IMG/VR virus record: IMGVR_UViG_3300044961_000421
Location: 1-64,000 of that record
DNA length: 64,000 bases
Strand: one strand, 5' to 3'
Source: a virus
This document shows, piece after piece, positions 15,037-63,974 of this stretch; within the stretch, counting starts at the first letter, position 1; every line of letters begins with the position of its first letter. The position numbers and the translations under genes were made by a program. The notes beneath the pieces are model-generated. The model ran no database searches, had not been told where the DNA came from, and saw only the letters and a program-made list of their open reading frames with translations.

Positions 15037-15068
15037 GAAAAAGGGAAGTCCGAAAACTCCCCTTTTCG
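15037..15068 (-). terminator. Intrinsic terminator of the tmRNA gene
   Basis: An 11-bp stem (AAAAGGGGAGT with ACTTCCCTTTT, one G-U pair) is followed by a T-run on the minus strand. Confidence 0.8.
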
Positions 15069-15300
15069 GTTTTTCTGTTGCCGGGAATCCAAACCCCGCT
15101 TTACCGTTTTTTAGGCGGCAAATGCATAAGCAAAGTTATTGTTTGCTTTTATTTGTTTGCTCTTTTTTACAAGGGTGCTCCTTGAATGCCTCCAGTTACC
15201 TCACAAACTCTGTCGAAACCTTTTCACCCCCATATGTTAGTTTGGTGGAGGTGCTGGGAATCGAACCCAGGTCCAAAGTTGCTACTTCCCCTTCAACGGA
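15069..15300 (-). ncRNA. ssrA: Circularly permuted (two-piece) tmRNA
   Basis: On the minus strand the acceptor piece comes first. It has a T-arm (CTGGG, TTCGATT, CCCAG) and a 3' end CACCTCCACCA at 15243. A short spacer follows, and then the 5' coding piece beginning GGGGGTG (15231-15225) and GGTTTCGAC. GGGGGTG pairs with CACCTCC with a G3-U wobble, the alanine identity element. The tag frame (15146-15111) starts at GCA and encodes ANNNFAYAFAA, then TAA. A terminator follows. Swapped order with a spacer is the permuted tmRNA layout known in alphaproteobacteria and some cyanobacteria. Outer ends are approximate. SmpB is not in the window. Confidence 0.9.
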
Positions 15301-15302
15301 CA

Positions 15303-16040
15303 TTATCTATTATTTAGATTCATTTTTTGCATATCATTCACATACAAAAACAGAACATCAAAAACCATTTGATTTATCCTGTTGAAATAAGGTTCTTTAG
15401 GTAATTCCGTTATTTCATATGCTTTTTTACACAATGAATATTCATTTTCAATTATGTCTTTTATTTCCTGTAGGTTAAAATACCCTTTCCTTACATTTTT
15501 AAGAAATTCAACATCATAAGTTCTTTTTACGAGAACGGTACCGTATCGTAAAATCTCTGTTGCCATTCTCAACAACCTTATGGTATGATAAGCATACTTT
15601 GTATCGTATCCAAATTGATCTACCAATTCCTTTCTCTTCGATCCCATTTTTCCAGTCAATTCACCAGTCATACGCTTATATTGGGAAGTTGCGTATCCTG
15701 TAAATGTGTGAAAAACTCTCTGAGAAATGAAATCATTTCTGTAATCATACATTTGTTTTCCATAACGGGGATCAAATGTTATATTTTCAGAGTAAAGTGC
15801 AACAAAAACATTTGGATTTGCCTTTAAACAGAGATTTACAAAATTTCTGAATTCATAAGATGTCATATCCGAATCTTCTGTTAGTTTCTGTTTGTTTGAT
15901 GTTCCTTTTAGACCAAGATAATGGAATGGGTGTTCCAAAAATACATGGATGAAATCTTCATCCGATTCTTCAGTATGAGTTCCATATCCTCTTGAACCAA
16001 CTAATGATGTAAAAATTATTTTTTCTTCATAATCTTTCAT
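15303..16040 (-). CDS. RlaP-type nucleotidyltransferase (COG3541-like)
   Basis: This is a 245-residue protein. LVGSRGYGTHTEESDED (residues 13-29) holds the GS and D-x-D residues of the polymerase-beta nucleotidyltransferase fold. The helical remainder fits the RlaP/YcgL-type family, often found beside RNA ligases in RNA-repair cassettes. The substrate is unknown; tRNA or RNA end repair is likely here given the ligase and CCA enzyme. It lies directly upstream of the tmRNA gene. Promoter at 16047-16075. Confidence 0.8.
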   Translation of the reverse strand: MKDYEEKIIFTSLVGSRGYGTHTEESDEDFIHVFLEHPFHYLGLKGTSNKQKLTEDSDMTSYEFRNFVNLCLKANPNVFVALYSENITFDPRYGKQMYDYRNDFISQRVFHTFTGYATSQYKRMTGELTGKMGSKRKELVDQFGYDTKYAYHTIRLLRMATEILRYGTVLVKRTYDVEFLKNVRKGYFNLQEIKDIIENEYSLCKKAYEITELPKEPYFNRINQMVFDVLFLYVNDMQKMNLNNR

Positions 16041-36190: not shown

Positions 36191-36219
36191 ATTATAACAC
36201 AAACAATAATAATAGTCAA
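36191..36219 (-). promoter_or_regulatory. Sigma70-type promoter, leaderless layout
   Basis: TTGACT (36214-36219), 17 bp, TATAAT (36191-36196), 6 nt, ATG at 36184. Confidence 0.8.
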
Positions 36220-47762: not shown

Positions 47763-49187
47763 TTATTTACTGGATCTTATCACATTTAATGCTAATTCAA
47801 TTGCTTGTTTTTTTGAAAGTGATGGGTTTTCGATTGCTTTTTCTAATATTCGTTTCTTAATTTTTCCAATAAGTGGTCCTTTAGCACCAAGAGAAGCAAT
47901 TTCGTTGCCGTCCAATATGGATTTTGTATTCAAAATTGAATTAATATCCATTTTTTCTATTCTTTTACGAATTTTATCTATCTGTTTTGGCATCGAATGT
48001 GCATCAGCGTGGGATATATTATCAGCATGGATTAATTTAAGTGCTGGTTCGAGCATATCGGAAACACGATAAATGAATTTTCTCAATGATTTATCAGAAA
48101 TTTGGTCTCCTTCAGGACCAGCAGATTTTAAATCCATGTGGTAATTTATTAATTTTTGTACCTTTTCAATATCACTATTGGAATATTTTAGTCTCTTCAT
48201 GATTTCAGCAGCAATTTTTGAACCTACAGAGGCGTGACCAATAAATTGAATTTTTCCATCTTTTTCAGTTCTCGTTATTGATTTCCCGATATCGTGAAAA
48301 AGTGCTGATAACCTGAGTATTAATTCTGTAGGTACTGCATCCAAAACATTTAATGTATGCTTGAAAGCATCATGCTTATGAAATTTGTTTTGTTGTAGTT
48401 TATGTAATTTCTCCAATTCAGGAATCGTATATTTAAGAATTCCTGTAATTCTAAACATACGAATCGCTTTTGATGGTTTTTCTAAAACCAATATTTTATT
48501 CAATTCATCCTGTATTCTCTCCGAAGAAATGTTTTTCAATTTTTCTGCATTCTTTTTTATTGATCGGATTACAGAAAGTGGTAAATCAAAATTGTATTTA
48601 AAAGCAAATCGGATTGCTCTCAGTATACGCAGAGGATCTTCGCTAAAAATCCAATCCGGATTCCCTGTTGTTTGAATTACTTTTTTATTTAAATCCTTTA
48701 TAGATCTTCCTGTTAAATCGAAAATTTCACCGGTCGTTAGGTTTTTAAAAAGAGCATTAATCGTAAAATCTCTTCTGAAAGCATCATCTTCAATCGTACC
48801 AACAGAAACGATTGGTTTCCTAGAACCCTGTTCATATTTTTCTTTTCTTGGAGCGACAAATTCAACGTCAATATCACCAGATTCTAATTTTAATGTCAAT
48901 TTTGCCGTTCTGAATCTAGGAAAAATTACAGGATTTGAATCCTTTTTATAAATACCAAGTTTTTTTGCTATGAATGTAGCAACCTTAATACCACCTTCGA
49001 TCCCGTGCCCATCTACAACTAAATCGACATCCTTACTCCTTAATCCGAGAAGATTATCTCGAACATATCCACCAGCAATAAATACTTTATTATCATATTT
49101 ACTACCTCGAATTACAGAGGCAATTAGCTTGATTGCCTCTTCCGCCTTTATTGATTCTAATAAAAAATATTCTTTTATGTTTAACAT
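47763..49187 (-). CDS. CCA-adding tRNA nucleotidyltransferase with HD domain
   Basis: This is a 474-residue protein. GGYVRDNLLG (39-48), KDVDLVV, FRRDFTINALF and EDPLRILRAIRFAFKYN are the class II CCA/poly(A) polymerase motifs. HDIGKS and GHASVG around residue 300 form an HD hydrolase domain. All phage tRNAs here already encode CCA, so its use is probably repair of tRNA 3' ends, of both phage and host. Confidence 0.9.
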   Translation of the reverse strand: MLNIKEYFLLESIKAEEAIKLIASVIRGSKYDNKVFIAGGYVRDNLLGLRSKDVDLVVDGHGIEGGIKVATFIAKKLGIYKKDSNPVIFPRFRTAKLTLKLESGDIDVEFVAPRKEKYEQGSRKPIVSVGTIEDDAFRRDFTINALFKNLTTGEIFDLTGRSIKDLNKKVIQTTGNPDWIFSEDPLRILRAIRFAFKYNFDLPLSVIRSIKKNAEKLKNISSERIQDELNKILVLEKPSKAIRMFRITGILKYTIPELEKLHKLQQNKFHKHDAFKHTLNVLDAVPTELILRLSALFHDIGKSITRTEKDGKIQFIGHASVGSKIAAEIMKRLKYSNSDIEKVQKLINYHMDLKSAGPEGDQISDKSLRKFIYRVSDMLEPALKLIHADNISHADAHSMPKQIDKIRKRIEKMDINSILNTKSILDGNEIASLGAKGPLIGKIKKRILEKAIENPSLSKKQAIELALNVIRSSK

Positions 49188-49790: not shown

Positions 49791-52340
49791 CTATTCCTTT
49801 ATAAAAAATTCACTCATATCAACAACCCTCTCCATTTTCCAACCAATTGCTTTCACAATAATCCTGAGAGGGTCCAAAAAAGATTTTTCAAATTGTGTTT
49901 CAAAATCAATCATTGTTTTATCAATACCAAACTCTTTCGGTATATAATCTACAAACGAAATCACTTTATCTTGAAATGCGTTTGGTTCTCGCATTGCCAA
50001 AAATTTGATTTTTTCTCCTTCTTGTATTGATGGTATAGTTTTTTCCAATCCGTATAATTTGATCAAATAATTAAAATTAATCGCGCCACGAACATGATAA
50101 GGAGCACCTTTTTTCGCTTTTCCTTGCTCATCCGTATATTTATCAATCCCATTTACTCCTCTCGGAAAAGCAATATCTTCAGGATCTAGGGTATAAAATT
50201 CTTTTTCGAATGATTCTATTAGATCCAATAAAGCATCATTATCTTTAGTCAAAATGATGGAAATTGCTTCTTTAATCTTTTCTCTGCAAGATTTTGGAGT
50301 AGAAGCTTTAATTGCTTCTATTCCCATCATTTTTAATTTTGGTTTTTCATATCTAATACCTTCCGAATCATAAACATTCATCATATATCGCTTTTTCGCT
50401 GTCCAAATGCTTTTATCCGCCAGCACATCACGAATCATTTTTATCAAATCTCCCATTCCGTTCAACATATTGAATGAAATGTTTGAGCAAATCTCATCAA
50501 TTTTTGGTTGTAATTCTTTTTTACAAATCTCATCCAAAAAATTGATAATCTTGATAGTATCGTCTGTATTTTTGAATAACAAATCTACAATCGTTTCCAT
50601 ACGAATATAAACAGAATCAGTATCGCAATAAATCACATACTCAAAATCCTTTGTTTTAAAAATTTTATTCAAAAAAGCATTTAATTCTCTTTCTATAATT
50701 TGGATAATAAACTGACCTGTAATTGTTACTGCTTCCGCATTATCTATATCATAGAACCGAAAATAATTTGATCCTACAGCACCGTACAACGAATTCATCG
50801 AAACCTTAACAGCTTTTTGTTTCAAATCATACTTAGAAACATCATTCTTAAGCGTTTCTTTTTCTTTTTTATCATGACAGTGTTCCAATTTATCTTTCGC
50901 TTCTTTGGCTAGTTTTTTATATTTCAGCCGATCATTAAACATCGTTTCGATTGCCTTACTATAAAACGATATTCGGTCTCTATCATAAAAAACACCATTT
51001 AATGAAAGAGTTTGATTATTTTTCTTTGCTTTACCCAATTCTTTTAACCAATTTGAATTACCAGAAAGAGCGTCATGGATCGTAAATGAATTGGTTTTTT
51101 CTACTTTCGTCTCAACACCTATATTCAAAACACGGATGATCGAAGGATAGAGTGAAGTAACGTCAAAAGAAACTACCCATTTATAAAGACCAGGTTTTGG
51201 TTCCTTGACATATGCTCCAACATATGCATCATTCTTTTCGTGTTCTTTTTTAAATGGGATGACAATTTTTTCTTTTCGCAAAGAATTATATAATTTGACA
51301 TCCCAAGTTCTTACTTGGCTTTCAACATCTTCATAATTTACTTTTGACTCATAAGCAACGTTTATGGTCAATTCAATTAATTTCATTTTTTTCTCTAGTC
51401 GTTCAACGAGTTCGACGTCCTTAATATTATACTCGACAAACGAATCAAAATCTGTATTATACAAATTTTGGAGAGATCCTATGTATTTCCGTTTTCCTTC
51501 TCCAAGTTCAACTTGGGATACATAATCCAACTTATATGATTCTCTCGGATCTTTTACATATTTTTTGTAAATATTAATATAATCGAGAATTGCGATACCA
51601 GCAATTTCGTATGTTTCCTTTTCCTTACCAAACCAATCTTCTGTTTTTTTCGAAATCATCTTGAATGGGCTGATACGTTTTGCTTGTTGTTCTCCAAAAA
51701 GATTTTTTAATCTATTGATCAAGTATGGAATATCAAAAAAACTAATACTCCATCCAGTAATAACATCAGGATCGCTTTTATACCACATCGAGAGAAAATG
51801 GGATAACATATCTCTTTCGTTTTCGAAACGGAAGAAAATTACATCTCTCTCAGGGAATTTCTTTCTCCAGCCCACCTCATCAAATCCATCTTTGAAATAG
51901 AAAAAATTATAATGGTTATCCGTAAAATTCTTTGTCGTTATAGTGATGATTTCATTTTCCGCTTTTTCTACAACCGGAAATCCATTTTCTGAGTCAACTT
52001 CAATATCAAAATTCAGAATCTTGATTTTGGATAAATCGAATTCAATATCATTCGGATAATTATCCGAAATATATTGATATTGCCACATGGTTTGTCCAAA
52101 TAGTTCAAAGTTACTCACCTCAGAATAATTTCGAACAAACTCTCTTGCTTCTTTAATTGTCGAAAATGGTATCCTTTCAACAAAACGACCATCGAGCGTT
52201 TTCATTGAGGTTGGAGTTTTTGATATAATATAAAGAGACGGAGAAAATTGTTCTTTTAACAATTTCTTATTTCCGTGTTCATCTATCTCTTTACAATAGA
52301 TAGTATTTCCGGCTAAAAAGACGTTTGTGTAATAGTTCAT
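49791..52340 (-). CDS. Family B DNA polymerase, T4 gp43-like
   Basis: This is an 849-residue protein, slightly shorter than T4 gp43. Exonuclease motifs NFDIEVDSENG, GWSISFFDIPYLINRL and EYNIKDVELVERL precede polymerase motifs DVTSLYPSIIR (about 390), KVSMNSLYGAVGS (about 515) and YCDTDSVYI (about 570). It is the replicative polymerase with proofreading. The promoter at 52353-52381 gives a leader of only about 6 nt. Confidence 0.95.
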   Translation of the reverse strand: MNYYTNVFLAGNTIYCKEIDEHGNKKLLKEQFSPSLYIISKTPTSMKTLDGRFVERIPFSTIKEAREFVRNYSEVSNFELFGQTMWQYQYISDNYPNDIEFDLSKIKILNFDIEVDSENGFPVVEKAENEIITITTKNFTDNHYNFFYFKDGFDEVGWRKKFPERDVIFFRFENERDMLSHFLSMWYKSDPDVITGWSISFFDIPYLINRLKNLFGEQQAKRISPFKMISKKTEDWFGKEKETYEIAGIAILDYINIYKKYVKDPRESYKLDYVSQVELGEGKRKYIGSLQNLYNTDFDSFVEYNIKDVELVERLEKKMKLIELTINVAYESKVNYEDVESQVRTWDVKLYNSLRKEKIVIPFKKEHEKNDAYVGAYVKEPKPGLYKWVVSFDVTSLYPSIIRVLNIGVETKVEKTNSFTIHDALSGNSNWLKELGKAKKNNQTLSLNGVFYDRDRISFYSKAIETMFNDRLKYKKLAKEAKDKLEHCHDKKEKETLKNDVSKYDLKQKAVKVSMNSLYGAVGSNYFRFYDIDNAEAVTITGQFIIQIIERELNAFLNKIFKTKDFEYVIYCDTDSVYIRMETIVDLLFKNTDDTIKIINFLDEICKKELQPKIDEICSNISFNMLNGMGDLIKMIRDVLADKSIWTAKKRYMMNVYDSEGIRYEKPKLKMMGIEAIKASTPKSCREKIKEAISIILTKDNDALLDLIESFEKEFYTLDPEDIAFPRGVNGIDKYTDEQGKAKKGAPYHVRGAINFNYLIKLYGLEKTIPSIQEGEKIKFLAMREPNAFQDKVISFVDYIPKEFGIDKTMIDFETQFEKSFLDPLRIIVKAIGWKMERVVDMSEFFIKE

Positions 52341-52352
52341 AATTCTTATTTA

Positions 52353-52381
52353 ATTATATCAAATTACAAAAGAAAAAGCAA
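52353..52381 (-). promoter_or_regulatory. DNA polymerase promoter with -35 inside a terminator
   Basis: TTGCTT (52376-52381, in the hairpin of the upstream terminator), 17 bp, TATAAT (52353-52358), 12 nt, ATG at 52340. Confidence 0.75.
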
Positions 52382-52410
52382 GTATGAAAATTAATCCATA
52401 CTTGCTTTTT
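52373..52410 (-). terminator. Intrinsic terminator
   Basis: A 14-bp stem (52373-52386 with 52397-52410), AT-rich at its base, lies downstream of the PEP-CTERM gene. Confidence 0.85.
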
Positions 52411-52429
52411 CTGAAAAAATACATTTATT

Positions 52430-53155
52430 TTACTTAATCGTTTTCTTTTTAAAAATACCTATAGCAATCAGAGAAGAAGTGAATAGAAAATAACTAGATG
52501 GTTCTGGGACAGCCTCATGAATAACACCAAAATCATCTAGACCAAATCCATCATTTCTTTGAAGATTTTCAAATCTAACTTCCCGAATCGGGTTATCCGA
52601 TTTAATTCCAACAAAATGAATAGCACCGTTTGAAAGAACTGTATTAGAAATTGTCGCATTTTGGATATTGTTTTGCGAATCTCTTACAGTCAAGAATAAA
52701 GAATTTGCTAATCCAACATCTTCAGCATCCGTAATAAAGAAAAATAAAGTATTTGTTTGTGGCCCCACATTCAAAAAAAACTTTGTAATATCATTTGAAT
52801 CCAACCAATTAGATCCATTTTGTGTCGTATTGAAACGACCGCTGAACGGAGACAGGCTATCATTCAGAATGAGTAATTCGTTTAATCCTGTTCCAGAGTT
52901 TCCTGGTGCTGAACCTTGTCCAGTTGGATCAATATTAAAAACACCAATATTTGTAAATAAAGAAGCATACTTTGTCGCGGGTAGATTTTCAAAATTTTCC
53001 AGTATTGTCCAAAAAGACGAATCTAACCAAATGTTTCTTTCTGCTTGGGCGCCGGACAAAGTATATTGAGGGCTCGAAACAAAAATTGTCAATGGTGAAG
53101 CGTGAGTCACCATACAAATAAAAAATACCAACAAAACGCTCCTTAAAAGCGACAT
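52430..53155 (-). CDS. Exported protein with PEP-CTERM sorting signal
   Basis: This is a 241-residue protein. A signal peptide (1-19), a beta-rich body with NNQN- and GFGLDDF-type segments, and a C-terminal VPEPSSYFLFTSSLIAIGIF followed by KKK form the classic PEP-CTERM tripartite tail recognised by exosortase. Body motifs (LDDFGVIHE before the tail) are common in bacterial PEP-CTERM proteins. It has its own strong promoter and AAGGAG site. It is probably acquired from the host and displayed or secreted by the infected cell. Confidence 0.85.
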   Translation of the reverse strand: MSLLRSVLLVFFICMVTHASPLTIFVSSPQYTLSGAQAERNIWLDSSFWTILENFENLPATKYASLFTNIGVFNIDPTGQGSAPGNSGTGLNELLILNDSLSPFSGRFNTTQNGSNWLDSNDITKFFLNVGPQTNTLFFFITDAEDVGLANSLFLTVRDSQNNIQNATISNTVLSNGAIHFVGIKSDNPIREVRFENLQRNDGFGLDDFGVIHEAVPEPSSYFLFTSSLIAIGIFKKKTIK

Positions 53156-53176
53156 AAATTTAATCTCCTTCCTATA

Positions 53177-53683
53177 TTACTCTTTTATTATAACACACTT
53201 ATCATACAAAGTCAACAATTTTTCAAGAGGTTGTAAAATATATCCTTGTAATTCCAATGAAATTGGGATTTGCCATTCTTTCCTCTCGAATGGTTTTTCG
53301 TGAATGTGACCGAACAAAGATATATCATAATATCCTTGTTCTTGAGGAGGTTTATGAATAAAACGAATCCTTTTATTCATATAATGAAATGAAAAATCAT
53401 CACAACAGAAATCCCACCCATTATTCATATACCAATTACAACTTTTCTTATCATGATTCCCGCGAACAAGAATCTTTTTTCCTGGTAATTGTTGGATTAT
53501 ATTTTTATGGATTATTGTTGTATCGGATCTATAAGAAACATCACCTAGATGGATAATCACATCACCATCATTTCTTTTTTTCCAATCCTCAATAATCAAT
53601 TCTTCAAAATTATCAGGACGGTTACAAAGTTTTTTGATATTTTCGTGTCCAAAGTGTGTATCAGTTATGATGAAGTAAGCCAT
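53177..53683 (-). CDS. Calcineurin-like phosphoesterase
   Basis: This is a 168-residue protein. FIITDTHFGHENIKKLCNRP, HLGDVSY, VRGNHDKK and FGHIHEKP give the metal-binding motifs of a small metallophosphoesterase family common in phages. The substrate is unknown. The ATG at 53683 is chosen, since longer frames run into the lysozyme gene. Confidence 0.8.
   Translation of the reverse strand: MAYFIITDTHFGHENIKKLCNRPDNFEELIIEDWKKRNDGDVIIHLGDVSYRSDTTIIHKNIIQQLPGKKILVRGNHDKKSCNWYMNNGWDFCCDDFSFHYMNKRIRFIHKPPQEQGYYDISLFGHIHEKPFERKEWQIPISLELQGYILQPLEKLLTLYDKCVIIKE
53187..53215 (-). promoter_or_regulatory. Promoter of the PEP-CTERM gene, with leader
   Basis: TTGACT (53210-53215), 17 bp, TATAAT (53187-53192), then about 25 nt of leader with GGAAGGAG. 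It overlaps the end of the phosphoesterase gene. Confidence 0.8.
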
Positions 53684-54105
53684 AATTTGATTTCTTCTTC
53701 TCGCCGTGCAACAAGACCGGGAAGAATTTTTCCTCCTGACCTGCGCCATTTTCTAAATTCATCAGGAATCAAATCAAATTTCTTCTCATTCAAATATTTC
53801 AAAAGTGATGAATTTTGAAAATTACCTATTCCTATATTATAAACCAACGAAATAATAGCATCTTGTTGATTTTGACTAAGTTCAACTTTAATCAATTTCT
53901 CTATAATTCTGATTTTTTCCTTTATCTTATTTAATAATAATTTTTCCGCCTCTTCTTCTGTGATACCATCTTTATATTTTATTGCTTCTTGTGGTGTTAA
54001 ACGATACCCATATCCTATCGCAGGATGTCCTTGATCATTATAGATTTTAGGAACAAAACCTTCCGCACGCTTTATAAATTCAAGACCTTTTTTACTTATA
54101 TCCAT
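53665..54105 (-). CDS. GH24 lysozyme (endolysin type), catalytic Thr replaced
   Basis: This is a 146-residue protein. FIKRAEGFVPKIYNDQGHPA and IGYGYRL hold E15 and D24 of the lysozyme triad, but the usual Thr before IGYG is Ala29. QQDAIISLVYNIGIGNFQNS, LLKYLN, FRKWRRSGGK and LPGLVARREEE fit GH24. There is no signal peptide, so release would need a holin. It may have altered or reduced activity. Confidence 0.8.
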   Translation of the reverse strand: MDISKKGLEFIKRAEGFVPKIYNDQGHPAIGYGYRLTPQEAIKYKDGITEEEAEKLLLNKIKEKIRIIEKLIKVELSQNQQDAIISLVYNIGIGNFQNSSLLKYLNEKKFDLIPDEFRKWRRSGGKILPGLVARREEEIKLWLTSS

Positions 54106-56834: not shown

Positions 56835-56909
56835 TGGCTCCTCCCCCAGGACTCGAACCTGGATCTCTTTCATTAACAGTGAAATGCCTTACCATTAGGC
56901 CAGATAGGA
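56835..56909 (-). tRNA. tRNA-Asn (GTT)
   Basis: Anticodon loop CTGTTAA; T-arm CCAGG/CCTGG; CCA encoded. Acceptor stem has one mismatch. Confidence 0.9.
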
Positions 56910-56926
56910 ACACGATTCTCTTATTT

Positions 56927-57003
56927 TGGAGCGAGTAAAGGGATTCGAACCCTTTCCTTTTGGGTGGAAGCCAAATATGCTATCCATTAAACACTATACT
57001 CGC
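56927..57003 (-). tRNA. tRNA-Gly (TCC)
   Basis: Perfect acceptor GCGAGTA/TACTCGC; anticodon loop CTTCCAC; CCA encoded. Confidence 0.95.
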
Positions 57004-57041
57004 CCTCTATAATACAATTATAACACAATATTTGATCTCTG

Positions 57042-57290
57042 TCAATCCAAAATAAAATGTTCTAAAGGATCCTTTTTTAATACTTCCCAATCTTCGGATA
57101 AAATATCTGTTTGTGATGCTACCCAAGGTACTAAATCATTTTCAACGGTTTTCATATAAATATATGGGAGAGTCATTTTTGATGTATTAGTTGGTCGCTG
57201 AAGACAGATCCACATATTTTTTCCATTCCATCCTGATCTGAAAACTTTTCTTCCTAATCTTAATAATCTTAATGCTTTTTCGAAATTCAT
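57042..57290 (-). CDS. Tad2-like (DUF2829) anti-Thoeris protein
   Basis: This is an 82-residue protein. MNFEKALRLLRLGRKVFRSG, WNGKNMWICL, LPYIYMKT, and LVPWVASQTDILSEDWEV match the DUF2829/Tad2 family. These proteins bind the signalling molecules of Thoeris defence. Size and motifs are complete. It lies between tRNA genes, a common accessory-gene position. The ATG at 57290 with GGAG upstream is preferred over an earlier start. Confidence 0.8.
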   Translation of the reverse strand: MNFEKALRLLRLGRKVFRSGWNGKNMWICLQRPTNTSKMTLPYIYMKTVENDLVPWVASQTDILSEDWEVLKKDPLEHFILD

Positions 57291-57357
57291 TTCTCTTTTC
57301 TCCAGGGCAAACAAGTTACCTTTTATTTATCGCCCACATTTTTAATTTTCCATTGAT

Positions 57358-57786
57358 CTATACAATAGTACCATTTAAGTGCATCATTTTATATCCAAAA
57401 TCTGCTTTATGTTTTCTATAATTAAAAAAACCAGAATCTTTGTTCCTATTTTGATAATTTTGATAAAAATGTATCATGATTTTTTCGAATTCTTCCTTTA
57501 AATAAACATCCAAAATATCAAAATCGGTTGATTGAAAATATTCTTTTCCTCGGGTACTAGTAAATATATCAAATATACAATATCCTTTTTTCCTTTTTGT
57601 TATTACAAACCATTCTGTGTTTTCATTTAAATTTTGCGAAACACTAAATTTTGTATACCAAACAATTGTATTTCTTAAAGATGGATTATGATAAATGGTT
57701 GAATTCGTATAAGAGAAAGAAATAGGTTTAATTATTTTGGCTGAATACCAAACAATTTCATCTGGAAAAGGATTTTTTTGTAACAT
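57358..57786 (-). CDS. Hypothetical protein
   Basis: This is a 142-residue protein rich in Tyr, Phe and Lys, with a beta-rich first half and an FEKIMIHFYQNYQNRN helix. It is not recognised. It lies between tRNA genes. A TTG five codons upstream is an alternative start. Confidence 0.55.
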   Translation of the reverse strand: MLQKNPFPDEIVWYSAKIIKPISFSYTNSTIYHNPSLRNTIVWYTKFSVSQNLNENTEWFVITKRKKGYCIFDIFTSTRGKEYFQSTDFDILDVYLKEEFEKIMIHFYQNYQNRNKDSGFFNYRKHKADFGYKMMHLNGTIV

Positions 57787-57812
57787 TGTTTTATTTCTCA
57801 AATCTATTAAAT

Positions 57813-57888
57813 TGGTAGCCGTGGAGGGACTCGAACCCCCAACTTCTTCCTTGTAAGGGAAGCACTCTAACCAATTGAGTTACACGGC
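57813..57888 (-). tRNA. tRNA-Val (TAC)
   Basis: Acceptor GCCGTGT with ACGGC end; anticodon loop CTTACAA; CCA encoded. The 5' end overlaps the stop of the next gene upstream by 9 nt. Confidence 0.95.
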
Positions 57889-58293
57889 TAAACGATATTC
57901 TTTTAGTTTATCATATAAATTCGATGTTTTTTCACCTTTATAAATTTCTTTTGGAAGAATTACTCCAACAACAGTCAAACAGTTATTTAAACTTGAGTAA
58001 TCTTCTCGAAAAAGGCATGTCGGATATTTTGTTTCCTTCAAGAAACAAAGCATATCATTTAATGCCGATTGATTTCCACCGTCAAGAATGATAATTGTTT
58101 TTCCATATTCTACCCAGGCTTTAAAAATTTCAATATCCTTCTTTTTCTTGAATTTTGACATTTCCGCCACCAAATGAACTGTCTGAAGGCCCTTTTGAAT
58201 TCCAGAAAGGTAAGAATTTACAAAAGCATAGAGCCTATATTCTTGTTCCGAATGATTGATTATCTTTTTCATTTTTTTCACATTATCGCTCAT
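57880..58293 (-). CDS. Conserved T4-type phage protein
   Basis: This is a 137-residue protein. YRLYAFVNSYLSGIQKGLQT, VHLVAEM, then KTIIILDGGN and CLTVVGVILPKEIY, matches a family conserved in T4-like phages. It loosely recalls peptidyl-tRNA hydrolase II, but that is a guess. Its last codons and TAA lie inside the tRNA-Val gene. AAAGG precedes the ATG. Confidence 0.7.
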   Translation of the reverse strand: MSDNVKKMKKIINHSEQEYRLYAFVNSYLSGIQKGLQTVHLVAEMSKFKKKKDIEIFKAWVEYGKTIIILDGGNQSALNDMLCFLKETKYPTCLFREDYSSLNNCLTVVGVILPKEIYKGEKTSNLYDKLKEYRLAV

Positions 58294-58348
58294 AATCATC
58301 CTTTCATTTTAAATATAACACAGGGAAAACAAAAAATCAAACATTTTT

Positions 58349-58426
58349 TGGTAGCCCAGATGGGACTCGAACCCACACCGTACAGATTCTAAGTCTGCCG
58401 CAACCTGCCAATTGTGCTACTGGGCT
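58349..58426 (-). tRNA. tRNA with Leu anticodon (TAG), class I body
   Basis: Acceptor AGCCCAG/CTGGGCT; anticodon loop CTTAGAA (TAG, codon CTA); CCA encoded. The variable loop is only about 5 nt, whereas normal tRNA-Leu has a long arm. It shares acceptor, D-region and T-arm with the TTG-decoding tRNA at 58610. Confidence 0.85.
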
Positions 58427-58437
58427 ATAAATATTTC

Positions 58438-58513
58438 TGGAACTCCTAGAAGGATTCGAACCCTCATCTATGCGTCCGTAGCGCATTGTCCTGTTCCATT
58501 GAACGATAGGAGT
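58438..58513 (-). tRNA. tRNA-Arg (ACG)
   Basis: Acceptor ACTCCTA/TAGGAGT; anticodon loop CTACGGA; CCA encoded. Confidence 0.95.
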
Positions 58514-58517
58514 AAAA

Positions 58518-58594
58518 TGGAGCACAAGGTGGGACTCGAACCCACTAAGAGTGATTTTGCAGATCACCACCTCGACCACTTCGGCATCAAGTGC
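58518..58594 (-). tRNA. tRNA-Cys (GCA)
   Basis: Anticodon loop CTGCAAA; U73 discriminator as expected for Cys; two U-U mismatches in the acceptor stem; CCA encoded. Confidence 0.9.
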
Positions 58595-58609
58595 TAAATT
58601 TTAAGGAAT

Positions 58610-58687
58610 TGGTAGCCCAGGTGGGACTCGAACCCACACAACATTGATTTTGAGTCAATCGCAACCTGCCAATTGTGCTACTGGGCT
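58610..58687 (-). tRNA. tRNA with Leu anticodon (CAA), class I body
   Basis: Acceptor AGCCCAG/CTGGGCT; anticodon loop CTCAAAA; CCA encoded; short variable loop. It is nearly identical in body to the tRNA at 58349. Confidence 0.85.
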
Positions 58688-58863
58688 TCATGTTTCCTTT
58701 TCTTATTAATCATATTTTCACGGATTTTATCCGCAACACGTTCAATCTCAAAATTCATCCACATGTTGCGAAATAAAGGAATAGGTTTTTGTTTCGCTCT
58801 ACAAATAGCACATAACATTAAAACTTTCCTATTTTTACGGATCAATTTTCTATTTGAACGCAT
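58678..58863 (-). CDS. Small basic protein with CxxC
   Basis: This is a 61-residue protein. MRSNRKLIRKNRKVLMLCAI, then CRAKQKPIPLFRNM. AGAAAGG lies just before the ATG at 58863, and the TAG stop lies inside the tRNA-Leu (CAA) gene. It is not recognised. Confidence 0.55.
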   Translation of the reverse strand: MRSNRKLIRKNRKVLMLCAICRAKQKPIPLFRNMWMNFEIERVADKIRENMINKKRKHEAQ

Positions 58864-58875
58864 ATTTACCTTTCT

Positions 58876-58950
58876 TGGTCTCCAAACCAGGATTCGAACC
58901 TGGACCACTTCGCCCCAAACGAAGTATGCTAACCATTACACCATTCAGAG
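58876..58950 (-). tRNA. tRNA-Pro (TGG)
   Basis: Anticodon loop TTTGGGG; T-arm CCAGG/CCTGG; CCA encoded. Confidence 0.95.
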
Positions 58951-58959
58951 AAAATATTT

Positions 58960-59034
58960 TGGCACCCCCATTCAGATTCGAACTGAAACCTCTGGTTTTG
59001 GAGACCAGAATTCTAACCATTAAACTATGGAGGC
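58960..59034 (-). tRNA. tRNA-Trp (CCA)
   Basis: Anticodon loop CTCCAAA; discriminator G; CCA end encoded. Confidence 0.95.
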
Positions 59035-59062
59035 TATAATATTAAATCATTGTTTTTATATT

Positions 59063-59137
59063 TGGTAGGTCCCCCGGGATTCGAACCCGGATATCACGGC
59101 TTAAAAGGCCGGTATTCTACCATTGAATTAAGGACCC
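59063..59137 (-). tRNA. tRNA-Lys (TTT)
   Basis: Anticodon loop CTTTTAA; acceptor GGGTCCT/GGGACCT with wobbles at its ends; CCA encoded. Confidence 0.95.
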
Positions 59138-59327
59138 GCGAAAATACCTTTGGTTGGATTTTTCTCTGGTGCTTTAATAAGAATTCGCGTTATTCTTTCT
59201 GTTTTCTTAACCCCATCTCATATCCGTCACACATCTCTTTTGGATTATGGTACCAAAGAGAGCATAAACGAGAGGTACATGAGGAGAAACAGGTTGCCCA
59301 AAGGTTCCCCAACCAATTTCAATAATT

Positions 59328-59414
59328 TGGTGGCCTGAGTGGGACTCGAACCCACACCCATTTGGTTTGGAACGGATTTTAAGTCCGTCGTGTCTGCCAT
59401 TCCACCACCAGGCC
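59328..59414 (-). tRNA. tRNA-Leu (TAA), class II
   Basis: Anticodon loop CTTAAAA; long variable arm of about 17 nt; acceptor GGCCTGG/TCAGGCC; CCA encoded. It is the only Leu tRNA here with the normal long arm. Confidence 0.95.
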
Positions 59415-59419
59415 GTAAC

Positions 59420-59494
59420 TGGAGCCGAGTCGCGGAATCGAACCGCGTTATCCGGTTTACAAGACCGACGCATCACCGACAATGCTTACCCGGC
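59420..59494 (-). tRNA. tRNA-Thr (TGT)
   Basis: Anticodon loop CTTGTAA; acceptor GCCGGGT/ACTCGGC; CCA encoded. Confidence 0.95.
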
Positions 59495-59501
59495 TAAAAT
59501 T

Positions 59502-59595
59502 TGGTAGTCCCACCTGGATTCGAACCAGGAACGCCCTCTAATCTGGAGGCTAGCCGGCTTATAAGACCGGTGTTTTACCATTAAACTATGGGACC
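59502..59595 (-). tRNA. tRNA with Ile anticodon (TAT) and a long variable arm
   Basis: Acceptor GGTCCCA/TGGGACT; anticodon stem CCGGT/GCCGG with loop CTTATAA (codon ATA); CCA encoded. The variable region is about 22 nt and forms a CCTC/GAGG hairpin, which is abnormal for Ile. Confidence 0.85.
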
Positions 59596-59605
59596 GAATT
59601 CTTTT

Positions 59606-59680
59606 TGGTGGACAGTAAGAGACTCGAACTCTTGACCTCTGCTTGCAAAACAGAAATTTTCCCAGTTAAACTAACTGCCC
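59606..59680 (-). tRNA. tRNA-Ala (TGC)
   Basis: Anticodon loop TTTGCAA; acceptor GGGCAGT/ACTGTCC with the G3-U70 Ala identity pair; CCA encoded. Confidence 0.95.
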
Positions 59681-59689
59681 GAAAAATTT

Positions 59690-59765
59690 TGGTTGTCAAC
59701 AGAAGACTTGAACTTCTACCCTCCGTCTTATCAGGACGGTGCACCACCATTTGTGCTAGGTGACA
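59690..59765 (-). tRNA. tRNA-Ile (GAT)
   Basis: Anticodon loop CTGATAA; T-arm AGAAG/CTTCT; one acceptor mismatch; CCA encoded. Confidence 0.9.
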
Positions 59766-59773
59766 AAATATTT

Positions 59774-59862
59774 TGGTGGTACATCAAAGAATCGAACTTT
59801 GCGGAGCCACAGGGGCTAAAAGGGTTACAGCCTTTTCCGTCTCCATAACGGTCTAATGTCCC
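59774..59862 (-). tRNA. tRNA-Tyr (GTA), class II
   Basis: Anticodon loop CTGTAAC; long variable arm as expected for bacterial Tyr; one acceptor mismatch; CCA encoded. Confidence 0.92.
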
Positions 59863-59863
59863 T

Positions 59864-59940
59864 TGGTAACCTAGGCGGGACTCGAACCCGCGATTTCCAG
59901 ATTGAAAGTCTGGTGGCTTAACCATCTTGCCCACTAGGTC
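59864..59940 (-). tRNA. tRNA-Glu (TTC)
   Basis: Anticodon loop CTTTCAA; acceptor GACCTAG/CTAGGTT; CCA encoded. Confidence 0.95.
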
Positions 59941-59945
59941 ATAAT

Positions 59946-60020
59946 TGGCAGGGGCGGATGGAATCGAACCAACATCTCTTGGTTCAAAGCCAAGAATAAT
60001 AACCATTATACTACACCCCT
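59946..60020 (-). tRNA. tRNA-Gln (TTG)
   Basis: Anticodon loop CTTTGAA; discriminator G; acceptor AGGGGTG/CGCCCCT; CCA encoded. Confidence 0.95.
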
Positions 60021-60028
60021 AATTTTCT

Positions 60029-60103
60029 TGGCGGGGCATAGGGGAATCGAACCCCTATCGTATGGTAGACAGCCAAACATCTTAGCCGTTAGAAGAATGC
60101 CCC
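60029..60103 (-). tRNA. tRNA-Asp (GTC)
   Basis: Acceptor GGGGCAT/ATGCCCC; loop CTGTCTA with an unusual T37 and one U-U mismatch in the anticodon stem; discriminator G; CCA encoded. Confidence 0.88.
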
Positions 60104-60111
60104 TTTAATAA

Positions 60112-60200
60112 TCTCCCGGAGGCGACCATCAACCCTCCCCTTCACCAGTTTCTACGGATGGAACCCGTTCTGTCCTCAGTCACAGGCAACCGGCTTTTTC
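60112..60200 (-). ncRNA. Candidate structured RNA leading the tRNA operon
   Basis: A GC-rich stretch in AT-rich surroundings lies between the tRNA-operon promoter and the first tRNA. On the minus strand it contains CTGT/ACAG and CCATC/GATGG pairings and ACGG-GTTCCAT-CCGT, which resembles a T-arm, but it is not a tRNA. It is a possible Y-RNA-like or leader RNA. Its identity is unknown. Confidence 0.4.
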
Positions 60201-60247
60201 GTTGAGATCAAATATTCTGTTTTCAAATATCTATCTGCTACTCTTTC

Positions 60248-60276
60248 AGTATCTCACATAATGAGATGAATGTCAA
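60248..60276 (-). promoter_or_regulatory. Promoter of the tRNA operon
   Basis: TTGACA (60271-60276), 17 bp, GATACT (60248-60253), pointing into the structured RNA and the tRNA array. Confidence 0.75.
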
Positions 60277-60326
60277 GAGAAGCAGGAAATTTTTTCTTCC
60301 GTTGGTTCAAATTTTTGAGAGGGGTT

Positions 60327-60956
60327 TTAAAATGACTTATTTTCTGTATTCGGTAGCCATAAGTCCCAATCGAAAGCTGGTCCAACATCAGTTTTATCTT
60401 TGCGATAGTTCTGGTGACTGGCGACACCTTTCCAACCCATGTATCGTATATCATATTGTAATCTATAATTTTTGTTTGGTTTAACATTTGGAATCCCAAA
60501 CCTATCACAAAGCATATCTACTAAGGGTCCTATCGCGGCTGCTTGTTCGTCTGTATAAGCAGCCCAATAATCAAAACCTCTATAATTGGCTTCTATTGCT
60601 TTCAAATTGTAAGGATTATTAAAATCTCTAGGCCAAGAATACAATTGTCCATTTTTCTTTTTTAATGGACCGAAATTTGCTATCTCAATTCCAATTGAAC
60701 GCTTGTCAATTGCTTGAGTACCTTTGGTACCTAAGTGAAACGCATAAAATTTTGGATCAAATACCTCATACACCGTTCCATCGGTATCAAGAATATATGC
60801 AGTTGCTATCCTAGAAGAAGTTACAGACCAAGAGGTAAAGGCGGATTTCGCAGATCCGCCGGCCGTGAAATGTAACACAATAAGGTCTTTTTTTGTTTCG
60901 GTAGAAACAAACTTACCTTCTCGGAGCCTCATTGTTTTGTCATCTATTTTTAGCAC
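60327..60956 (-). CDS. N-acetylmuramoyl-L-alanine amidase
   Basis: This is a 209-residue protein. LIVLHFTAGGSAKSAFTSW, then ATAYILDTDGTVYEVFD, FHLGTKGTQAIDKRSIGIEI and a late SHQNYRKDKTDVGPAFDW give the zinc amidase (Amidase_2) ligands. It cleaves peptidoglycan and is a probable endolysin or lysis helper. The start is GTG at 60956 or ATG at 60932. Confidence 0.85.
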   Translation of the reverse strand: MLKIDDKTMRLREGKFVSTETKKDLIVLHFTAGGSAKSAFTSWSVTSSRIATAYILDTDGTVYEVFDPKFYAFHLGTKGTQAIDKRSIGIEIANFGPLKKKNGQLYSWPRDFNNPYNLKAIEANYRGFDYWAAYTDEQAAAIGPLVDMLCDRFGIPNVKPNKNYRLQYDIRYMGWKGVASHQNYRKDKTDVGPAFDWDLWLPNTENKSF

Positions 60957-60964
60957 ATTACTAT

Positions 60965-61684
60965 TTAGTTTCGAAAATATTTTAATTCGAGAGATCCATC
61001 ATAATTTTCGATAATAAATGAAAAATTTTCTATCCAATCACCACAATTTATATATTCTTTACTCATCTTTGGTGTATGTATGTGTCCACACAATACAATA
61101 TCACAATCTTTTGCGTTTTTATAATTTATCATCACATCCTCAAAATTTCGGATAAATGAAATCGCTTCCTTTGTCTTCTCTTTCGCAAATTTTGATAATG
61201 ACCAATATGGTAAATGAAATGTTGTCTGTATCCAGTGAATGAAGCGATTTATTTTAATGATCAAATCATAAAGAATGGAACCTATTTTTGCCAAAAATTT
61301 TAGGTGAGTTATTGTATAATCGAAAAGGTCTCCGTGAATAACGAGTAATTTTTTCCCATTGGCTAAGGTATGAATATATTCATTAGTAATTTCTATATTA
61401 AAAAGAGAAATAGGAAGTATTCGTCTTATTGCTTCATCATGATTACCAATTATATAAAATAATTTAGAATGTTTTGATAATTTGAGAAATTTTTGTATTA
61501 CATTATTTGAATGTTTATTCCAAACAACCTTTCTCTTCATTGCCCAAAAATCAAAAATATCTCCTACAAGAAAGATGTTTTCCGCTTCTATTGTCTTTAA
61601 GAATTTGTGAAAAAATTCTGGATTAGAATAGGCAGCACCTATATGTGTATCAGAAACAAAAATGGATTTACATTTGATTTTCAT
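60965..61684 (-). CDS. LpxH-like metallophosphatase
   Basis: This is a 239-residue protein. FVSDTHIGAAYS, FLVGDIFDFWAMKRKVVW, YIIGNHDEAIR, VIHGDLFDY and LCGHIHTPKM follow UDP-2,3-diacylglucosamine diphosphatase-type enzymes (lipid A pathway). It may alter lipopolysaccharide of a Gram-negative host, but the family also has other substrates. The ATG at 61684 is chosen, with a GATAAATA late-like box 7 nt upstream. Confidence 0.75.
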   Translation of the reverse strand: MKIKCKSIFVSDTHIGAAYSNPEFFHKFLKTIEAENIFLVGDIFDFWAMKRKVVWNKHSNNVIQKFLKLSKHSKLFYIIGNHDEAIRRILPISLFNIEITNEYIHTLANGKKLLVIHGDLFDYTITHLKFLAKIGSILYDLIIKINRFIHWIQTTFHLPYWSLSKFAKEKTKEAISFIRNFEDVMINYKNAKDCDIVLCGHIHTPKMSKEYINCGDWIENFSFIIENYDGSLELKYFRN

Positions 61685-61691
61685 TGAAAAA

Positions 61692-61699
61692 TATTTATC
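61692..61699 (-). promoter_or_regulatory. Late-like promoter box
   Basis: GATAAATA, one base from the late consensus, lies 7 nt before the ATG at 61684. Confidence 0.45.
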
Positions 61700-61701
61700 T
61701 A

Positions 61702-61902
61702 TCAATTTATACTAGATATACGATTCTTTCTCGCTAGTTCTTCCAAATGTTTAACATAATTTATAATTTCATCAACAGCAATGTCTGCTGGTGGTGGTCC
61801 AGGAATATCACCAAAAACACCATTCCACAATATTCTTATTTGTTCTAGGAGAAATTTATTTTCGTCTCTATATTCGTTTAAGGTAAGTAAATCATTATTC
61901 AT
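61702..61902 (-). CDS. Hypothetical small protein
   Basis: This is a 66-residue protein with helical ends and a Pro-rich GDIPGPPPADIA turn. It is not recognised. It lies just upstream of the LpxH-like gene. Confidence 0.6.
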   Translation of the reverse strand: MNNDLLTLNEYRDENKFLLEQIRILWNGVFGDIPGPPPADIAVDEIINYVKHLEELARKNRISSIN

Positions 61903-61917
61903 ATTTCGTACAAATAA

Positions 61918-62364
61918 TCACCTTTCACATAAAACATATTTTATTTTACCATGTACCAATGTCGTAAGTATTTCATATTTCACGACATTGTAATCTAATT
62001 TACCCAAGCCCGCGCCCAACATAGGAACAGCCACAGAATTGATATCCGTATATTCATCTTCTATTTCTAGCATCCTTTTCAAGATATTACGGACATAAAA
62101 AATGGAAGAATTATCTTTCCAATGATATTTCGTTGTTGCTAGATAGATTTTTTTAGGATGTTGTTCATAAGAATCAATAACATAAACATTTCCGGGTTCG
62201 AGAATCTTTTTTTCACAAAGATCCCTATAAAAAATGAATGTCTTCGGAAACCTATTTTTGAATTGTTTTGCGAGTCCGGTTCCCATTACTCCAACACAAT
62301 TTACGGGATTAACGAAAGCATCACATCCGCTATCGAAAATAGAACAAACAAATGTATTGATCAT
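61918..62364 (-). CDS. Macrodomain protein (ADP-ribose binding or hydrolase)
   Basis: This is a 148-residue protein. FVNPVNCVGVMGTGLAKQFK (17-36), LEPGNVYVID and VPMLGAGLGKLDYNVV are macrodomain signatures, closest in look to the DarG/ADP-ribose phosphatase type. It may remove ADP-ribose from DNA, RNA or protein and so oppose DarT-like defence. It overlaps the TROVE gene stop by 4 nt. Confidence 0.85.
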   Translation of the reverse strand: MINTFVCSIFDSGCDAFVNPVNCVGVMGTGLAKQFKNRFPKTFIFYRDLCEKKILEPGNVYVIDSYEQHPKKIYLATTKYHWKDNSSIFYVRNILKRMLEIEDEYTDINSVAVPMLGAGLGKLDYNVVKYEILTTLVHGKIKYVLCER

Positions 62365-63713
62365 GATATGGTTACCTTTTCATATTCGGTGATATATTTG
62401 AAGATATTCTCAGAATATCCAGAAATTGTGTGCCAACCGTTTTTATAACCAATCCCATTTTTGTAAGAAGCAACATTTATAATGTAATTATATTTTCCTA
62501 ATTTCTTAGCATTTTCCGGTTTTTCTTCAAATCCACCACAATCTTGTTCGTCTGTAAATACGATTACACGATCATAATTTTCTTGTTCCATTTTACTAAT
62601 ATGGTCCAAGCAACGAACTAGATAAATTCCACCGTATCCGGCTTCATTTTTTGAAATAAAAGAATGAATCGAAAATCCTCTTAAATGGGATGGAACCAAT
62701 ATTGTTTTATTTCCTGTGATATACATAGTTGAATCGTGGCACAATTCACGAGCAATAATCATTACAGAGGCACCTGCGTCAATTCGTTTAACATTCGTTT
62801 TTTTCGAAATTTTATATTTCATCGAACCACTTACATCAAGTACAATAAGTGTTTTCCCATTCAATTTTTCCATCTGAGAAATGGACTTAAACATCGCTTT
62901 TTCTAGAGATCCTGAAAAACGTGCTGTATATTTTGATGCTGTGATAAAACGGTAAGGGAAAATTTTCTCAAATGAACCGTTTTCCAAACGTTCTTTGATT
63001 AAATTGTAATCTACACCAGAAAATTTCATATTTCTCAAATTACGCAAAGTTGCGAGCCCACCCAATTTACCTTCTCTCAAAAGTCGCTCAAATGTTTCCT
63101 TTTTATCTTTTCCGGAAGATAGATTTGATTCCCATGTATCGGCTACTTCTAACTTTTTATTAGCGATTTTCTTAAAAAGATCCGCCTTCTTTTCATCTGA
63201 AGGTTTCGCATGACTGAGAAACAAAGCATCACGCAATTTAATAGGATTTTTTTTTCCTTGATACTTTGCGAAAGAATATTCGTTGAATTTATTAAACGCA
63301 TCCGAAAACGCCTTTTGTACGGAATGCGGAAGCATTTTCTTCCCATCTTTCCAATAAAGAGAAATAAATTCTCCAAATTCATCAGGACGTTGGATGATGT
63401 GGGCTAGTGTTTTGCGAATTAATTTGGAAGGTATCGGTTTTTTCTTACACAATTCTTTAATCATAAAGAGTGGAGTGTGACGAATATACATTTCATCACG
63501 GGCTTGAATAGCAATTTCTGCTACTTCTTCAGCATCCATCTTTTTGATTAAATTGGCCATAATAATTGAAGATTCAATTCCATTTTCATAGAATGTATCT
63601 TCAAAAAGTAAATTACAAAGAACAAGTCTCTTTAATTGTTCTTTGTTTGTTGGAGGGGTGGTCGCAATAGCGCCTTCATGTGTATATACATTACTCTTTT
63701 CTTCTAAAGACAT
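62361..63713 (-). CDS. TROVE/Ro60-like RNA-binding protein with vWA domain
   Basis: This is a 450-residue protein. Helical TROVE repeats (residues 20-270, with ARDEMYIRHTPLFMIKELC, GGLATLRNLRNM and FPYRFITASKY) are followed by a vWA-like domain with MIDAS LDVSGSM near 290 and IVFTDEQDCGG. This is the Ro60/Rsr layout. Ro proteins bind Y RNAs and misfolded RNAs and act in RNA quality control. AGGTG 6 nt upstream favours the ATG at 63713. It lies between the tRNA array and tRNA-Met. Confidence 0.85.
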   Translation of the reverse strand: MSLEEKSNVYTHEGAIATTPPTNKEQLKRLVLCNLLFEDTFYENGIESSIIMANLIKKMDAEEVAEIAIQARDEMYIRHTPLFMIKELCKKKPIPSKLIRKTLAHIIQRPDEFGEFISLYWKDGKKMLPHSVQKAFSDAFNKFNEYSFAKYQGKKNPIKLRDALFLSHAKPSDEKKADLFKKIANKKLEVADTWESNLSSGKDKKETFERLLREGKLGGLATLRNLRNMKFSGVDYNLIKERLENGSFEKIFPYRFITASKYTARFSGSLEKAMFKSISQMEKLNGKTLIVLDVSGSMKYKISKKTNVKRIDAGASVMIIARELCHDSTMYITGNKTILVPSHLRGFSIHSFISKNEAGYGGIYLVRCLDHISKMEQENYDRVIVFTDEQDCGGFEEKPENAKKLGKYNYIINVASYKNGIGYKNGWHTISGYSENIFKYITEYEKVTIS

Positions 63714-63722
63714 CCGCATCAC

Positions 63723-63900
63723 CTAGCGCTATATAAGCTATAAATTTGTTGGTAATTAAAAACGGTGTTGAAGTAACCGTCTTACGCAACACAATAATAC
63801 AAAAAAATAATAATTGAATTTTATTATTAATATTAATGGTAACATTCATGCCGGGAAAGTGTTTTCATATGAAGTATCCGACATTTTCAACACATTAATA
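63723..63900. other. AT-rich gap before the TROVE gene
   Basis: There is no ORF. A small inverted repeat (ACGGT/ACCGT near 63761-63779) is present. I see no Y-RNA consensus, but a short RNA cannot be ruled out. Confidence 0.4.
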
Positions 63901-63901
63901 A

Positions 63902-63974
63902 TGGTTGCGGTGGTCAGAGTTGAACTGACGGGGATTGGTTTATGAGACCAACTTGAATACCGATTCTCACCGCT
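63902..63974 (-). tRNA. tRNA-Met (CAT)
   Basis: Anticodon stem TTGGT/ACCAA with loop CTCATAA; T-arm GTCAG/CTGAC; CCA encoded. Position 1-72 is an A-A mismatch, as in initiators, but the three G-C pairs of initiator anticodon stems are absent. It could also be an Ile (k2C) form. Confidence 0.88.

Follow-up and report, generated by a model that had tools for sequence, protein, structure and literature searches.

The window analyzed here is the whole 64,000-nucleotide stretch, bases 1-64,000 of an 80,875-base IMG/VR virus record (IMGVR_UViG_3300044961_000421). Its minus strand carries, at 52430..53155, an intact open reading frame with an ATG start that encodes a 241-aa PEP-CTERM protein, P0001. 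The translation begins with a signal-peptide-like stretch, read by eye (residues 1-19, MSLLRSVLLVFFICMVTHA; 53099..53155, minus strand), continues with a body (residues 20-214; 52514..53098, minus strand), and ends in a PEP-CTERM sorting tail (residues 215-241; 52433..52513, minus strand). The mature protein is cysteine-free and contains ~10% Asn. A beta-rich body is plausible only, and a single-sequence AlphaFold model of P0001 had a pLDDT of 38. Phage genes on the same strand lie 21 bp upstream (a metallophosphoesterase, 53177..53749, minus strand; phrog_547, E 5.1e-28, and PF00149) and 90 bp downstream (the T4-type DNA polymerase gp43, 49791..52340, minus strand; phrog_262, E 3.9e-284). The codon usage and GC content of the P0001 gene are like those of the phage's own genes, and the gene is therefore probably not a recent arrival.

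The tail (AVPEPSSYFLFTSSLIAIGIFKKKTIK) has the order VPEP, hydrophobic stretch, and basic KKK, and its last 26 residues (VPEPSSYFLFTSSLIAIGIFKKKTIK) form the exact C-terminus of the open reading frame. The TIGR02595 PEP_CTERM model (match at 52442-52510) scored 17.3 bits on the protein and 20.1 bits in a DNA search, passing its cut-off of 16, and Pfam PF07589 (match at 52448-52513) scored 16.0-19.3 bits, narrowly below its cut-off of 20.7. NF038120 (PEP_CTERM_QFxxD) matched the C-terminal end only, at 15.8 bits with a cut-off of 80. This tail was the sole PEP-CTERM match in the 80,875-base record (E 1.5e-4 to 1.8e-4), and no such tail was found at E <= 1 in 37 related T4-like contigs. The original prediction of an intact gene with a PEP-CTERM tail thus stands, with the signal peptide clear by eye, and the sequence supports the reading of P0001 as a genuine exosortase-type substrate gene carried by a phage. 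No exosortase was found in the 80,875-base record, so sorting would need a host exosortase, which would presumably narrow the host range to exosortase-bearing bacteria.

The gene had also been proposed to have a strong private promoter and a ribosome-binding site, and both were recovered. A sigma-70-type promoter, TTGACT-17-TATAAT with an extended -10 element (TG), lies at 53187..53215 on the minus strand, within the 3' end of the metallophosphoesterase gene, and ranked first among the sites of an 11-kb scan. The ribosome-binding site, read from the sequence, is AGGAAGGAG (53165..53173, minus strand), 9 nt before the ATG. On the 3' side of the stop codon is an intrinsic terminator with an 18-bp stem followed by a T-rich tail (52371..52412, minus strand; -23.5 kcal/mol, z -8.8). 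By these signals the P0001 gene is a predicted stand-alone cassette with its own promoter, ribosome-binding site, and strong terminator. Five near-perfect promoter sites of the same kind were found in the window (0.2 expected). Three of them (36191-36219, 53187-53215, and 57017-57045 (-)) have the longer form TTGACW-N14/15-TGTTATAAT in common, for which the expected count was 0 and no shuffle gave any; one of the three precedes a tRNA gene by ~14 nt. The enrichment, the longer common form, and the position before a tRNA gene suggest a real, strong promoter class, and these sites probably represent one promoter class of the phage.

The record is a linear fragment from a T4-like phage, in which profile searches identified gp43 polymerase, UvsX, a DnaB-type helicase, and a T4-type lysozyme. 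For gp43 and UvsX, the best cyanophage proteins show ~43-46% identity, the relatives of gp43 are only ~39-44% identical, and no close relatives of the phage were found in a search via its CCA-adding enzyme and the gp43 comparison. The CCA-adding enzyme (47763-49187) had its top match (48%) in a 735-kb uncultured phage. A cluster of ~20 phage tRNA genes (56835-63974, minus strand) includes one called as tRNA-Ile(TAT) that has a long variable region, and the cluster adjoins a gene for a TROVE (Ro60-type) domain protein (62361-63722, minus strand; PF05731, 50.1 bits). A permuted (two-piece) tmRNA with the tag ANNNFAYAFAA lies at 15042-15332 on the minus strand. It scored 126.5 bits with RF04321 and 95.4 bits with RF01850 (betaproteobacterial); a betaproteobacterial model being the best in its clan is a weak host hint only. 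The T4-type lysozyme is not the sole cell-wall enzyme: directly downstream of the tmRNA is a SleB-type hydrolase gene (PF07486; 14565-15020, minus strand) with a signal-peptide-like start. The record also encodes a second secreted-looking protein, of 517 aa, with a malectin (sugar-binding) domain (L083:4464-6017, minus strand; record 68464-70017; PF11721, 61 bits) and, within L083:9983-13605, a MoxR-like ATPase, whose gene adjoins that of a divergent 809-aa protein. The latter has the look, by eye, of a CobT/vWA partner and is without a Pfam match.

Homology of the body was evaluated with the tail removed, using shuffled and same-genome decoys. The genome searches covered drawn samples and were not exhaustive; the best match of P0001 (E 1.3e-10, residues 50-238) came from 349 genomes in the order that includes a Rhodocyclaceae genome, taken here to be Burkholderiales in GTDB. 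The best cellular match is P0002, from a Burkholderiales genome (G148:C68:11923-12666). The tail-less bodies of P0001 and P0002 aligned with 29% identity in blastp (E 7e-9 for the pair) and scored 27.6 bits in phmmer vs at most 14.7 bits for ~10,000 shuffles. A profile built from four other bacterial bodies, with tails removed and P0002 left out, ranked the P0001 body first, at 27.9 bits vs 9.7 bits for the best decoy among the record's other open reading frames and 2,000 shuffles. Because the tail-less bodies align and the four-body profile ranks it first, P0001 belongs by sequence to a bacterial family of PEP-CTERM bodies, as a divergent member. A comparison of the body with bacterial PEP-CTERM families, as the original prediction advised, gave a match, and the closest relative was found beside an exosortase. 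A virion protein was the competing identity named there for the body; no PHROG family, structural ones included, matched P0001 at E <= 1, and no virion family was among the matches. P0001 had no match among PDB sequences or named NCBIfam bodies.

The gene for P0002 is flanked by those for a PEP-CTERM response regulator (TIGR02915) and an exosortase (TIGR02602), and a small Ser-rich gene also lies to one side of it. Glycosyltransferase and polysaccharide-deacetylase genes of an exopolysaccharide (EPS) cluster adjoin the locus, and a search of the same genome at E <= 0.001 gave no PEP-CTERM protein other than P0002. Elsewhere, in genome samples centered on Coraliomargarita (Verrucomicrobiota) and on Pseudanabaena (Cyanobacteria), P0001 had one match at its tail end and one weak match. 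A low-GC DDF..VPEP pattern returned chiefly chance matches in GTDB, and the genomes named there were used to center later searches. Peptide patterns in IMG/VR and GTDB contigs and tblastn against phages gave no relatives of P0001, and neither the IMG/VR patterns nor the phage tblastn found a second phage copy of its body. A multi-family body alignment was too diverse for scanning viral sequences.

PEP-CTERM open reading frames do recur in virus contigs. A scan of IMG/VR with a VPEP..TWA motif, together with one narrower low-GC scan, found at least 95 loci with at least 102 such open reading frames; these figures are lower bounds, and as some records may contain host flanks, the loci are not a phage count. 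Among the matches listed, at least 53 of the 102 belong to one body family (e.g., L115, L117, and L202; loci L084-L208), and none of the 102 has the P0001 body. In the contigs examined, several copies from this family lie near tail-fiber, helicase, or endolysin genes; two members searched had no PHROG match. The openly available literature on PEP-CTERM with phages or viruses, consulted mostly as titles and abstracts, yielded no description of a phage-encoded PEP-CTERM protein, and phage cargo of this kind seems undescribed in the part of the literature so covered.

A possible role is suggested by PepA. When PepA was overexpressed in Aquincola, soluble EPS fell, bound EPS rose, and a mutant regained its flocs (PMC9850573). 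Other Aquincola PEP-CTERM genes tested in the same study did not restore flocs (PMC9850573), and a role in EPS can therefore not be assumed for every PEP-CTERM protein. P0001 was evaluated as a PepA and rejected: the curated model NF033554 (cut-off 80 bits) had no match at E <= 5 to the protein and none at E <= 1 to the body alone. P0002 scored 27.8 bits and is likewise not a PepA by this model. Because PepA shifts EPS to the bound form and restores Aquincola flocs, EPS remodeling is the leading, though unproven, role for P0001 in our analysis.

The best explanation, to which we give about an even chance, is that P0001 is a host-derived exosortase substrate made by the phage to alter surface exopolysaccharide. 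Its gene would be a stand-alone expression cassette of host origin, long resident in the phage and transcribed by host RNA polymerase from the sigma-70 promoter, probably early in infection. As is known of PEP-CTERM proteins, P0001 would leave the cytoplasm via Sec, stay anchored in the inner membrane through its tail, and be cleaved near PEP by the host exosortase. The released protein could then reach the outer surface or the slime and hold exopolysaccharide on the cell, in the manner of betaproteobacterial PEP-CTERM proteins whose genes neighbor an exosortase gene. The likely benefit would be the masking of receptors against superinfecting phages or the retention of the infected cell in a floc. 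We infer the timing, export, cleavage, EPS binding, and benefit; the surface localization, superinfection block, aggregation, and EPS effect named in the original prediction have the same conditional standing. Against this explanation, a lytic cycle may end too soon for surface sorting to make a difference, the body is ~29% identical to that of P0002, the curated model assigns neither protein to PepA, and no second phage copy of the body was found.

The same strong private promoter would also suit a protein made in excess to saturate the host exosortase, such that host PEP-CTERM proteins miss the surface and a looser slime eases the release or spread of progeny. Competition of this kind is conceivable, as P0002 is a single PEP-CTERM substrate beside its exosortase. 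A tail alone would suffice for a decoy, yet P0001 has kept a full body of a bacterial family, and we regard saturation as unlikely. Exosortase might instead play no part, with the tail a plain anchor and the body a membrane-bound periplasmic exclusion protein that keeps superinfecting phages from delivering their DNA or blocks their lysozyme. A signal-peptide-like start and a C-terminal hydrophobic stretch with a basic end fit such a protein, and early membrane proteins are generally known to serve exclusion in T4-like phages. The PEP motif and its spacing, however, pass the sorting-signal model, and the body groups with bacterial exosortase substrates and with no phage exclusion family, making this reading improbable.

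The gene might also be a host fragment, neutral or newly acquired, that plays no part in infection; this would agree with its absence from the related contigs examined and with the lack of another phage copy of the body among those searched. Its intact open reading frame, phage-like codon usage and GC, terminator, and dedicated promoter, a kind that also stands ahead of phage tRNAs, leave this quite doubtful. A single metagenomic record, in which no second copy confirms the junctions, could in principle represent an assembly chimera with bacterial DNA, or P0001 could be a virion protein. We rejected both as very unlikely, given the closely spaced same-strand phage genes on either side, the phage-like composition, the absence of a PHROG match, and the bacterial body.

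More broadly, and tentatively, it is possible that phages repeatedly capture exosortase substrates and rewrite host slime or surface during infection (superinfection block, floc retention) via a host sorting enzyme that is not phage-encoded; P0001 would be the T4-like case, its body coming from a family with ties to an exosortase EPS locus. If true, the exosortase pathway would be a route by which phages manipulate the surface and exopolysaccharide of the host, and infection could be tied, in a testable way, to the flocculation of bacteria important in wastewater and freshwater. The PEP-CTERM tag would also help to predict hosts, since sorting of the product would be confined to bacteria with an exosortase.

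Among known systems, the T4 proteins Imm and Sp are phage-encoded superinfection-exclusion proteins that block DNA entry or lysozyme. As envelope proteins protecting the infected cell they resemble the proposed P0001, but they are not known to have a PEP-CTERM tail or to make use of exosortase. The PEP-CTERM open reading frames of IMG/VR share with P0001 a secreted protein, a VPEP tail, and a virus contig, whereas their bodies are unrelated, they are mostly of high GC, and they were not found in the T4-like relatives. PepA of Zoogloea and Aquincola, an exosortase substrate of exopolysaccharide-producing Betaproteobacteria, is not matched to P0001 by its model, and the likeness is one of possible EPS retention. 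P0002 is chromosomal and lies beside exosortase and EPS genes, whereas the P0001 gene has a promoter to itself and lacks a neighboring exosortase gene. Although only about 29-30% identical, these two proteins share a signal-peptide-like start, a PEP-CTERM tail, and a homologous body with the motifs WLDSND, F.I.DA.D.G, and DG.G.DD.
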